This document shows, piece by piece, positions 1,254-4,141 of a stretch of DNA of 32,227 nucleotides. The position numbers were made by a program, and so were the translations under genes. The stretch covers positions 1-32,227 of the forward strand of contig CAMNNY010000164.1 of the NCBI GenBank assembly GCA_946546175.1, written 5' to 3'. A model generated the notes under the pieces. That model saw only the letters and a program-made list of their open reading frames with translations. It had not been told where the DNA came from and did no database searches. How positions within the stretch are numbered: position 1 is the stretch's first letter; each line of letters begins with the position of its first letter. Source of the DNA: an uncultured Bacteroidales bacterium. Lineage in GTDB: Bacteria > Bacteroidota > Bacteroidia > Bacteroidales > UBA932.

Positions 1254-1830
1254 AAGGATCATACTCGCAAGCGGATCTCCGCGAAGGCGGGAACTGCTCG
1301 CCGGGCTCGATATCCCCTTCACGGTCGATACCGGCAACACCTTCGAGGAGTCCTTCCCTGCCGGCACACCGGCCCACGATGTACCCGTGCTCATGGCAGA
1401 GGGCAAATCGCACGGTTTCCCCCGCGCGCTCGACCCTGACGAGATTCTCGTCACGGCCGACACCGTAGTCATAGTCGACCGCCCGGGCAAGGAGCCCGAG
1501 GTACTCGGCAAGCCCCATTCGCGCGAGCAGGCAATCGGGATGCTTCACGAACTCTCGGGTCGCGAACACGAAGTCGTCACGGCCGTCGTAATCCGCTCCA
1601 CAGAGTGCGAAAAGAGCTTCTCGGTCAGCACCAAAGTCAGCTTCGGAGTATTGTCCGAAGACGATATCCTCTACTATGTAGATACCTACAAGCCCTTCGA
1701 CAAGGCCGGGGCCTACGGCATCCAGGAGTGGATAGGCTTTGCCGGCATCTCCGGAATCGAAGGCTCGTTCTACAATGTGATGGGCTTCCCTGTCTACAGA
1801 TTCTGGCGCGAACTGCAGTGCTTCCTCTGA
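1237..1830 (+). CDS. maf: Maf-family nucleoside triphosphate pyrophosphatase
   Basis: A protein of 197 residues with all the Maf landmarks: ILASGSPRRRELL near the N-terminus (substrate-binding loop with the SPRR pair), VTADTVVIVD with the catalytic Asp, LGKPHSREQAIGMLHELSG, and YKPFDKAGAYGIQEW toward the C-terminus. The family hydrolyses non-canonical or unwanted nucleoside triphosphates (dTTP/UTP or modified pyrimidines) to monophosphates, acting as a house-cleaning enzyme in the cytoplasm. The ATG at 1237 overlaps the KdsC-like gene by 17 nt and places ASGSPRR where the family expects it. It is followed by the rluA-type gene with an inferred 13-nt overlap. Confidence 0.92.
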   Translation: MRSVSKRIILASGSPRRRELLAGLDIPFTVDTGNTFEESFPAGTPAHDVPVLMAEGKSHGFPRALDPDEILVTADTVVIVDRPGKEPEVLGKPHSREQAIGMLHELSGREHEVVTAVVIRSTECEKSFSVSTKVSFGVLSEDDILYYVDTYKPFDKAGAYGIQEWIGFAGISGIEGSFYNVMGFPVYRFWRELQCFL

Positions 1831-3194
1831 AGTTTACATATCCGTTCAGGTACACCCCTCACCCGCTCGTAGTGGACGCTGCGAAGCGGCTCATCTCAGA
1901 AATAGACTCCGACCCCGAACTTTCCGGCATCTTCAGTGAAGGCAAGATGCTCGGTGTCATGGTCTGTGAGTCTCCAGACGGCTCGATGGTGACCCTGCGG
2001 GCTTTCTCCGGGCTCGCCGGCGGCCGCAGCACCCTTCCCGGCTTCGTTCCCCCGATCTTCGACACCCTCTCAATGCCGGAGCTATGGGGGTCATCAGAGG
2101 CGGATGGGCGTCTGCCCCTGCAACCGTCTCGCTTACGCTCGACCCCACCGTTCACTTCGTTCACGGTCCCCCCTCTTACGCGGCCGAGGGTGGCACGTGT
2201 TGCCGGGGCAGACGCCCACTCCGCCTCATCAGAACGCTCGGCTGCGCTCCAAGAACGGCTCTTTCGCAGTTACCGGGTTCACAATGCCCTGGGAGCCATG
2301 TCAGACCTAAAGGAGATTTTCGCGGAACGCGGACTTGTACCACCTGGCGGGACGGGCGAATGCGCGGGTCCTAAACTCCTCGAATACGCTTTTCGCCACG
2401 GTCTTAGACCGCTCGCCATGGGCGAATTCTGGTACGGCGCCTCCCCTTCCGGCGGCGAAGTTCGCGAACACGGCAGATTCTACCCTTCATGCACCGGCAA
2501 ATGCGGTCCGTTGCTTTCGTGGATGATGCAGGGGCTGGACGTGGAGGACAATCCCCTGCAGCGCCGCATCGACGATCGCGAGATACGGGTACTGTACGAA
2601 GACGAGGCAATTTTGGTCGCCTGCAAGCCTTCCGGCATGCTCTGTTCGCCAGGTCTAACGGGAGTTCCATCGCTTCAAGAAATACTCGAGTCAAGCCATG
2701 GTAAACTCTTCGAGTGCCACAGGTTAGATATGGACACAAGCGGCGTGATAGTCTACGCCAAGACCCCGGAAGCGCAATCCGTAATCCGCAGCCAGTTCGA
2801 GAATCGCGAAGTTCGCAAAACCTACCTTGCCCACCTTTCCGCCGGCCACCGTCCATGGAAAGGAAAACGCACGGGCACCATCGCCCTGCCTCTGGCTCCC
2901 GACTGGGACGACCGCCCGAGACAGAAAGTCGACCGCGAACACGGCAAGCAGGCGATTACGCAATTCGAGATTCTTGACATCTTCCCTGACGGTGAGATGG
3001 ACGTACGCTTCACTCCTCTCACCGGCCGTACTCACCAGCTGCGGGTCCACAGCGCTTCCCCGCTGGGACTTGGCCGTCCGATCAAGGGGGACGCCCTCTA
3101 TGGCAGCCCCGACGGCGGCCGACTCGAACTCTACGCCGAAACTCTCACCTTCCGCCACCCGGTGAGCGGAGAAACCGTCAGTTACACCATATAA
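1818..3194 (+). CDS. RluA-family pseudouridine synthase with Bacteroidota-type N-terminal domain, carrying an in-frame insertion element
   Basis: The C-terminal half is a complete RluA-type rRNA/tRNA pseudouridine synthase: VACKPSGMLCSPG, then HRLDMDTSGVIVYAKT (catalytic Asp in HRLD), then GRTHQLRVHSASPLGLG and IKGDALYG. The N-terminal half, from FTYPFRYTPHPLVV to the Cys-containing FYPSCTGKCGPLL, matches the extra domain of Bacteroidota RluA proteins. The ORF track starts at 1605, but its first 71 codons lie inside maf in another frame. GTG at 1818 puts the start just before LPLKFTYPFRYTPH, with a 13-nt overlap with maf; this start is inferred. About 45 residues between ELWGSSE and RSAALQERLF are encoded by a palindromic insertion (2091-2233). 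The long coiled coil I remember at this place in Bacteroides orthologues is absent. Target RNA unknown. Confidence 0.85.
   Translation: MLPLKFTYPFRYTPHPLVVDAAKRLISEIDSDPELSGIFSEGKMLGVMVCESPDGSMVTLRAFSGLAGGRSTLPGFVPPIFDTLSMPELWGSSEADGRLPLQPSRLRSTPPFTSFTVPPLTRPRVARVAGADAHSASSERSAALQERLFRSYRVHNALGAMSDLKEIFAERGLVPPGGTGECAGPKLLEYAFRHGLRPLAMGEFWYGASPSGGEVREHGRFYPSCTGKCGPLLSWMMQGLDVEDNPLQRRIDDREIRVLYEDEAILVACKPSGMLCSPGLTGVPSLQEILESSHGKLFECHRLDMDTSGVIVYAKTPEAQSVIRSQFENREVRKTYLAHLSAGHRPWKGKRTGTIALPLAPDWDDRPRQKVDREHGKQAITQFEILDIFPDGEMDVRFTPLTGRTHQLRVHSASPLGLGRPIKGDALYGSPDGGRLELYAETLTFRHPVSGETVSYTI
2091..2233. repeat. 8-bp target-site duplication TCATCAGA (2091-2098 and 2226-2233)
   Basis: The two identical octamers directly abut the outer ends of the inverted repeats and are 135 bp apart. 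In protein they give a duplicated Ser-Ser-Glu on either side of the insert. Confidence 0.8.
2099..2225. mobile_element. MITE-like palindromic element inserted in frame in the rluA-type gene
   Basis: This 127-bp sequence has terminal inverted repeats of 26/27 bp. The left arm (2099-2124) starts GGCGGATGGGCGTCTGCCCC. The right arm (2199-2225), reverse complemented, is the same except for one extra G and one T-to-G difference. The repeats end exactly at an 8-bp direct repeat, TCATCAGA, on each side. There is no internal transposase ORF, so it is non-autonomous. Element plus one duplication is 135 bp, exactly 45 codons, and contains no stop in the host frame. Removing it joins SSE to RSAALQERLF, which fits the family sequence as I remember it. 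Confidence 0.82.
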
Positions 3195-3664: not shown

Positions 3665-3732
3665 GGCCTCCGCACCTCGCTCCCGGTTCCGCGCGAGTGG
3701 CGCGTGCGCCTGGTGCTCAGGCCAAGAAGTTC

Positions 3733-3868
3733 GCTCGGTGGGAGCGGAGGTTTTTGGCAGTTACACCGGTAGGCAGCCCGTTCCCGCTGGGCCGGTCGAT
3801 CTCGGCGACCCCCGCCGCACTCGTTAGGCCGGCGCGGTAACTGCCGAAAACCGACGAAACCACCGAGC
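3733..3868. repeat. Long imperfect inverted repeat (about 136 bp)
   Basis: The left arm reads GCTCGGTGG, then GGTTTTTGGCAGTTAC and CCGG. The right arm, reverse complemented, reads GCTCGGTGG, then GGTTTTCGGCAGTTAC and GCCGG. The arms are about 36 nt with a few mismatches and small gaps, around a GC-rich core of about 60 nt. Size and build resemble the element in rluA, but the terminal sequences differ and I found no clear flanking duplication. Confidence 0.55.
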
Positions 3869-4022
3869 CCGCGGACACTCACGCCCGCGACTTGCTAATC
3901 GCGTAGGAGTGATGGTAGTACATACGAATTCAGGTGATTTTCGCGACGTAATGAAGGTAGCACCTTCGGATGCGCAGCGTCTCCACAAAAGACCGGAGGT
4001 TGCACATCTGACGCCCTTTTCC

Positions 4023-4048
4023 GTTAGTAAATCGGCCATTTTACTAAC
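4023..4048. repeat. Palindrome 1 of a pair (GTTAGTAAA/TTTACTAAC)
   Basis: A perfect 9-bp stem encloses an 8-nt loop TCGGCCAT. It shares its architecture and loop core GGCCA/AGCCA with palindrome 2, which begins 22 nt later. The half-site ATCGGCCAATATACTAACGG reappears at 32012-32031. Confidence 0.65.
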
Positions 4049-4069
4049 CAAATCACCTTCGAAAACCCA

Positions 4070-4103
4070 TTCCGTCAGTAAAACAGCCAATTTACTGACG
4101 GAA
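4070..4103. repeat. Palindrome 2 of a pair (TTCCGTCAGTAAA/TTTACTGACGGAA)
   Basis: A perfect 13-bp stem encloses an 8-nt loop ACAGCCAA. It pairs with palindrome 1, and the stems are variants of the same TNAGTAAA sequence. Because they are palindromes, both strands give similar short peptides (SVSKTANLLTE, SVSKLAVLLTE), which explains the repetitive-looking ORFs here. Confidence 0.7.
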
Positions 4104-4141
4104 TTTCTCCCCAACAACCAATCCAACTGAAGAGGCATACT

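Follow-up and report, generated by a model that had tools for sequence, protein, structure and literature searches.

The Rickettsia palindromic elements (RPEs) and their Wolbachia counterparts are dispersed sequences of 100-150 bp that form a long stem-loop with terminal inverted repeats, and they lie in frame at tolerated sites of conserved protein genes, with the same locus occupied in several orthologues (PMC3767692, PMC2229807). Bacterial MITEs are bounded by conserved terminal inverted repeats and duplicate their target, and in some of them element frames are fused with host genes (PMC2229807). REPs are shorter, at 20-40 bp, and chiefly extragenic (PMC3733652).

Here we analyse the window, a 32,227-nt stretch of DNA from an uncultured Bacteroidales bacterium (contig CAMNNY010000164.1), in which a first-pass annotation had noticed a palindrome inside a pseudouridine synthase gene and likened it to RPEs. 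The insert belongs to a family of small mobile elements of gut Bacteroidales that had not been described before and that we provisionally name Bacteroidales host-armed palindromic elements. Judged by the published descriptions, the likeness to RPEs is borne out: the element is a palindrome of ~100-150 bp with many dispersed copies, is tolerated in frame in conserved genes, and in the window occupies a tolerant linker between domains. Unlike RPEs, it belongs to another phylum, lacks an Rfam match, has a pseudoknotted core, carries outer arms that are specific to each copy and match the native flank of the host, and occurs in both orientations in host genes. With REP/REPIN-RAYT systems it shares the imperfect palindromes, the numerous copies, the lack of a target duplication, and Y1 genes that are common in the genus, but its unit is larger (~80-100 nt), intragenic, pseudoknotted, and away from Y1 genes. 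Like the bacterial MITEs Correia/NEMIS, RUP, and ERIC/RU-1 it is small, palindromic, and non-autonomous, whereas its outer arms are unconserved and duplications are lacking as a family feature. Inverted repeats shaped by template switching likewise have homogenised arms, with spacer inversion in coding sequence (PMC8604942) and creation of hairpin stems (PMC8794818); those systems use pre-existing short repeats, while the Bacteroidales mobile core would carry a starting hairpin to hundreds of sites.

The insert in the pseudouridine synthase gene

The features of the host gene and the insert are as follows, in window coordinates.

1827..3194, plus strand: RluA-like RNA pseudouridine synthase gene, the host (PF00849, orthologues)
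2091..2098, no strand: left direct repeat TCATCAGA (window sequence)
2099..2124, no strand: left palindromic arm P1, its inner ~10 nt like other copies and its outer part copy-specific
2122..2201, minus strand: conserved structured core (93.1 bits with covariance model R1)
2126..2143, minus strand: P2 hairpin, GTC/GAC (folding, covariation)
2147..2167, minus strand: P3 hairpin, ACCGT/ACGGT, with inner ACGAAGT triloop (folding, covariation)
2171..2196, minus strand: H-type pseudoknot (covariation and count across copies)
2196-2192 with 2185-2183, minus strand: pseudoknot stem S1, GTGCC pairing with GGC
2190-2186 with 2175-2171, minus strand: pseudoknot stem S2, CCCTC pairing with GAGGG
2182-2176, minus strand: pseudoknot loop CGCGTAA
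2199..2225, no strand: right palindromic arm P1', pairing with P1
2226..2233, no strand: right direct repeat TCATCAGA (window sequence)

The first-pass annotation described a 127-bp palindrome with arms of 26 and 27 bp, and we confirm it at 2099-2225; a repeat search recovers the arms as inverted repeats of 20 nt at 95% and 8 nt at 100%. Element and repeat together add 135 bp to the synthase gene, which are 45 in-frame codons without a stop, also as annotated. Under RNA folding the hairpin reaches a z-score of -6.4 on the plus strand and -6.8 on the minus strand, and none of 200 shuffles equals it. The host protein matches PF00849 (PseudoU_synth_2) at ~2610-3056 with an E-value of 9.7e-28; its gene lies immediately downstream of a Maf-like gene (1237-1830), and its start codon is uncertain, being either CTG at 1827 or farther upstream. 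The 45 codons follow a conserved N-terminal part and precede the PseudoU_synth_2 domain. In an AlphaFold model (20 relatives), residues 89-133, which are essentially the insert, have pLDDT values below 50 and are flanked by two confident parts. The inserted residues are read, from this predicted model, as a disordered loop, which supports the proposal that the linker is tolerant of disruption.

Other repeats lie farther along the window. A different dispersed palindromic repeat at 3725-3875 (arms 3733-3764 and 3837-3868) has 26 matches in the same genome at 71-100% identity, many of them at contig ends, and its arms match between copies, unlike those of the family described here. Two short repeats that form hairpins, GTTAGTAAATCGGCCATTTTACTAAC and CCGTCAGTAAA..TTTACTGACGG, lie at 4020-4104, and similar hairpins flank element copies in genome G031 (L093, L107).

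A conserved core with an H-type pseudoknot

On the minus strand the core runs GTGCC-A-CCCTC-GGC..-GTAA-GAGGG, followed by P3 and then P2, with the arms closing the junction. The pseudoknot has a 1-nt first loop and a last loop that ends in A. It can be formed by 116 of 123 distinct copies, compared with 2.3% of shuffles and with one copy on the opposite strand. Pairing holds in 89.8% of the cells of alignment A5, against 76.1% after shuffling and at most 57% when the alignment is slid, and both sides have changed in 18 of 25 pairs. Stem S2 covaries, occurring as CCCTC/GAGGG, CCCGC/GCGGG, and CCCAT/ATGGG. C(GNA)G triloops are the commonest class among the hairpin loops that could be assigned by script; such triloops resemble very stable DNA mini-hairpins and would favour a fold of single-stranded DNA. 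In two copies of genome G004 (L096, L110) the P2 hairpin itself makes up a long and almost perfect stem, as though the inner hairpin had been extended too.

Family size and range

Family searches used covariance model R1, which was built on the ~80-nt core. It gives 497 matches in 43 of the 61 genomes of the genus, with up to 37 copies per genome, and it also finds the element in 8 of the 26 genera of the family and, beyond that family, in two others of the order; a sample of 396 across the phylum gives no match outside the order. These matches extend the range past the single genus that a DNA search had suggested. A homologue at 62% identity carries the label Candidatus Cryptobacteroides, and the genus may be Cryptobacteroides-like. 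The window's own genome holds a second close copy (C60:2372-2464, 88% over the core), which lies in the reverse orientation to its gene, within the open frame of a protein that we named zinc-ribbon/FHA-like by eye. The further copies that the first-pass annotation had called for are thus present, one more close copy at home and hundreds in relatives. Identical cores at unrelated sites within one genome (L187/L188, L154/L155, L267/L268) are evidence of mobility, as is presence or absence at orthologous sites in UvrA and a FAD-dependent oxidoreductase gene.

Five loci of the window's own genome (L210-L214, on C136, C138, C62, C111, and C68) form a second subfamily with the pseudoknot stem CCCGC/GCGGG. 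Their arms are near-perfect yet differ from one another, suggesting recent activity in this genome.

A search of Rfam 15 returned no family above its gathering score, the element giving sub-threshold matches of the kind expected by chance, and we found no prior description of the family in a literature search that covered a minority of subscription journals. All genomes are drafts, mostly metagenome-derived. An assembly artefact is nevertheless an unlikely source of the copies, because they are in frame, mostly internal to contigs, and recurrent across independent assemblies.

Insertions inside genes

Both genes and intergenic DNA receive the element, which may face either way. In 77 of the 123 distinct copies a reading frame stays open for 40 codons or more on both sides, which is a lower bound for copies inside open frames. 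A codon-usage classifier of coding flanks proved too weak for these calls (21 copies called both in-gene and open), and open frames together with Pfam matches were used instead. All 20 in-frame copies that were scanned match known protein families in Pfam. Hosts include UvrA, a FAD-dependent oxidoreductase, MiaA, IspE, IspH (LytB), Fmt, a class-III aminotransferase, aldehyde dehydrogenase, 2-oxoacid dehydrogenase E2, KsgA, MetH, RecQ, RsmF, GH3, TrmB, RibF, DnaX, and a tyrosine integrase, among others. In several of them (LytB, Aldedh, Aminotran_3, RrnaAD) a single Pfam domain is split around the insert.

The strong covariation and the conserved pseudoknot could mean that the element is a functional RNA, its stem kept by selection because the transcript works in the host gene, and the cores at shared sites are indeed conserved at least as well as the host flanks. 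The 77 in-frame copies are, however, evenly divided, with 39 antisense and 38 sense to the host gene, so that the structured strand is missing from half of the host transcripts. The insert is also frequently absent from orthologues, and copies decay by internal deletion (L301, L006). We consider selection for a working RNA very unlikely.

Copy-specific arms without a target duplication

The outer arms do not follow the core from copy to copy. Among 11 same-genome pairs with cores at least 98% identical, the median outer-arm identity is 0.50, against a baseline of 0.46, while the arms within each copy are complementary at 0.93. In L267/L268, for example, the 73-nt cores are identical and the ~20-bp arms are unrelated. 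Identity between copies falls to chance level beyond ~10-13 nt from the core; complementarity within a copy reaches ~26 nt. The outer arms are not transposon ends.

This pattern bears on the proposal of the first-pass annotation that the insert is a classic MITE, derived from an insertion sequence with a DDE transposase, mobilised in trans by way of terminal inverted repeats of 26 bp, and flanked by a target duplication of 8 bp. In the window copy a perfect 8-bp direct repeat does stand exactly at the arm ends, and TCATCAGA is single in the linker of a close relative (L006), both as a MITE would have it. The duplication stands for this copy and fails as a family feature: in a search of 95 copies that allowed boundary shifts of up to 4, a flush direct repeat of at least 7 bp was found in one, the window copy itself, and further copies with 8-bp duplications did not appear. 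Arms that differ despite identical cores, and an arm in UvrA that consists of host sequence (described below), likewise speak against transposase-recognised ends. As a mechanism for the whole family the classic MITE is contradicted, and we give it the least credence of the explanations weighed here. Should the outer arm be host DNA, the boundary of the insertion would not coincide with the arm end, and the window repeat TCATCAGA is thus probably fortuitous or secondary.

Five copies in G353, a genome from another family of the order (L255, L258, L272, L273, L274), are recent and have common arms together with an extra left hairpin, TCTCCATAAGTGGAGA; arms can therefore travel along with the core. 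Beside two of these (L258, L272) lies a second, diverged element.

Arms and host sequence at shared sites

At the UvrA site (L088/L121), the compared orthologues are free of the insert, except for L301, where a decayed copy occupies that position. The flank on the right encodes the native, conserved FSSRFELDG, and its nucleotides are identical, TTCTCCAGCCGCTTCGAGC, in the insert-free orthologue L281 (G011). The left arm of L121 and L088 includes CGAAGCGGCTGGAG, which is exactly the reverse complement of CTCCAGCCGCTTCG within the FSSRFELDG codons, and this sequence match shows clearly that the left arm is a copy of host codons. The FAD-dependent oxidoreductase gives a suggestive second case for a host origin of an arm. 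Two copies (L103, L327) occupy the same site in opposite orientation, the remaining orthologues are empty, and either species has a right arm that mirrors the left flank found in that same species (GCCATTTCCTC/GAGGAAATGGC; CATCTC/GAGATG).

Across 16 pairs of copies at matching sites, the median identity is 0.79 for host flanks, 0.83 for cores, and 0.54-0.55 for arms, and the arms within each copy are complementary at 0.75-0.83. The core orientation is opposite at some of the sites, and some pairs, chiefly those with the core reversed, may have arisen by separate insertion into the same tolerant loop.

Such arms could also be formed in the insertion event itself, by a recombinase that, in inserting the core, copies ~15-25 nt of flank in inverted form. 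This is the main rival to the mechanism proposed below, and it gains from pairs such as L267/L268 and L187/L188, where identical cores already have complete, different arms, so that the arms must form at once or very fast. In RsmF (L159/L202), however, where the arms are 0.89 identical and the insertion is clearly shared, the outermost arm bases differ on both sides (GGTCAGACC in L159, CGTCTTCCC in L202) and the inner arms are alike. These two-sided changes point to continued conversion after insertion, and we judge formation in the insertion event to be unlikely, though it deserves more weight than any other alternative.

At the window site, the closest relatives (L006-L008) lack the core. 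L006 was considered as an empty site and then dropped, since its linker retains TCATCAGA together with a right-arm-like remnant, GGGGCAAACGACCGCTCCGCC; L008 keeps a small palindrome. A family copy occupies the same linker in L053, whose protein is 69% identical, and the RluA-like orthologue L034 (linker at ~2600-2775 of that locus) has an insert there that went undetected by the covariance model and is either a strongly decayed family copy or another element. Empty-site orthologues of the sort sought by the first-pass annotation exist, with short, insert-free linkers in L009, L010, and L011 and further insert-free orthologues besides. The L053 copy, the L006 remnant, and the L034 insert in one linker make the insertion older than that annotation implied. 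The simplest account is one old insertion that decayed repeatedly; repeated insertions into a tolerant linker are possible.

Candidate mobilisers

Host-copied arms are also compatible with a REP-like element mobilised by Y1 transposases of the RAYT type. A target duplication is not expected from such enzymes, and the C(GNA)G triloops, being like very stable DNA mini-hairpins, would suit them. Y1_Tnp matches occur in 38 of 43 element-bearing genomes, compared with 8 of 18 element-free ones (Fisher p 0.0007, with kinship ignored), and the association has a Spearman coefficient of 0.41 (p 0.001), with genome size correlated likewise. RAYT genes typically have their REPs alongside, but the 24 loci around Y1 genes contain no confident element, with two weak matches only, and five element-bearing genomes have no Y1 match. 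Mobilisation by Y1 enzymes is accordingly doubtful, a shade more so than arm formation at insertion. Throughout the genus (for example L235, L243, L248), genomes carry several divergent RAYT-like Y1_Tnp genes encoding ~300 aa. A retroelement moved by an RVT_1 reverse transcriptase is not what we find, with this domain absent from the high-copy genomes G016, G033, G137, and G353. These comparisons yielded no protein that mobilises the core.

Discussion

The explanation that we favour, and hold to be probable, is a gene-tolerated mobile core resembling RPEs, with outer arms made from the host flank, probably by template switching during replication. The mobile unit would comprise the ~80-nt structured core and ~10 nt on each side, the core folding on one strand into a pseudoknot and two hairpins at a junction. 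In essential genes, selection would spare only those insertions that keep the frame, contain no stop, and fall in tolerant loops. The element would not itself bring the outer 10-35 bp of its two arms, which would instead be reverse-complement copies of adjoining host sequence. We suppose that the core stalls replication and that its short complementary ends prime template switching, which would copy one flank into the other and so lengthen and re-perfect the stem. Template switching homogenises the arms of inverted repeats and inverts spacers inside genes (PMC8604942), and it can make perfect hairpin stems in one event (PMC8794818). If it at times inverts the core, the opposite orientation of copies at matching sites would be accounted for. 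We infer template switching from end products, and an insertion reaction that left an inverted duplicate of the flank would yield similar arms.

The stronger form of this proposal is that the core, after landing, makes replication copy the host flank as its reverse complement, so gains host-derived arms particular to each copy, goes on re-perfecting them, can flip, and rewrites adjacent codons of housekeeping genes, and so acts as a generator of coding palindromes; we regard this as evenly poised between true and false.

To our knowledge, protein-coding palindromes have been a rare curiosity, mainly of Rickettsia and Wolbachia. The elements described here are a second large natural set, with hundreds of copies in Bacteroidales of the gut and rumen, many of them in genes such as UvrA, DnaX, IspE, IspH, and Fmt. 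Palindromic inserts of this kind are open to being misread as domains or as signs of positive selection, which calls for caution. The family makes testable where the perfect arms of palindromic elements come from, how a parasite enters essential genes without killing its host, and whether template switching makes new blocks of protein sequence, and it offers a route by which parasitic DNA can alter the proteins into which it is inserted.
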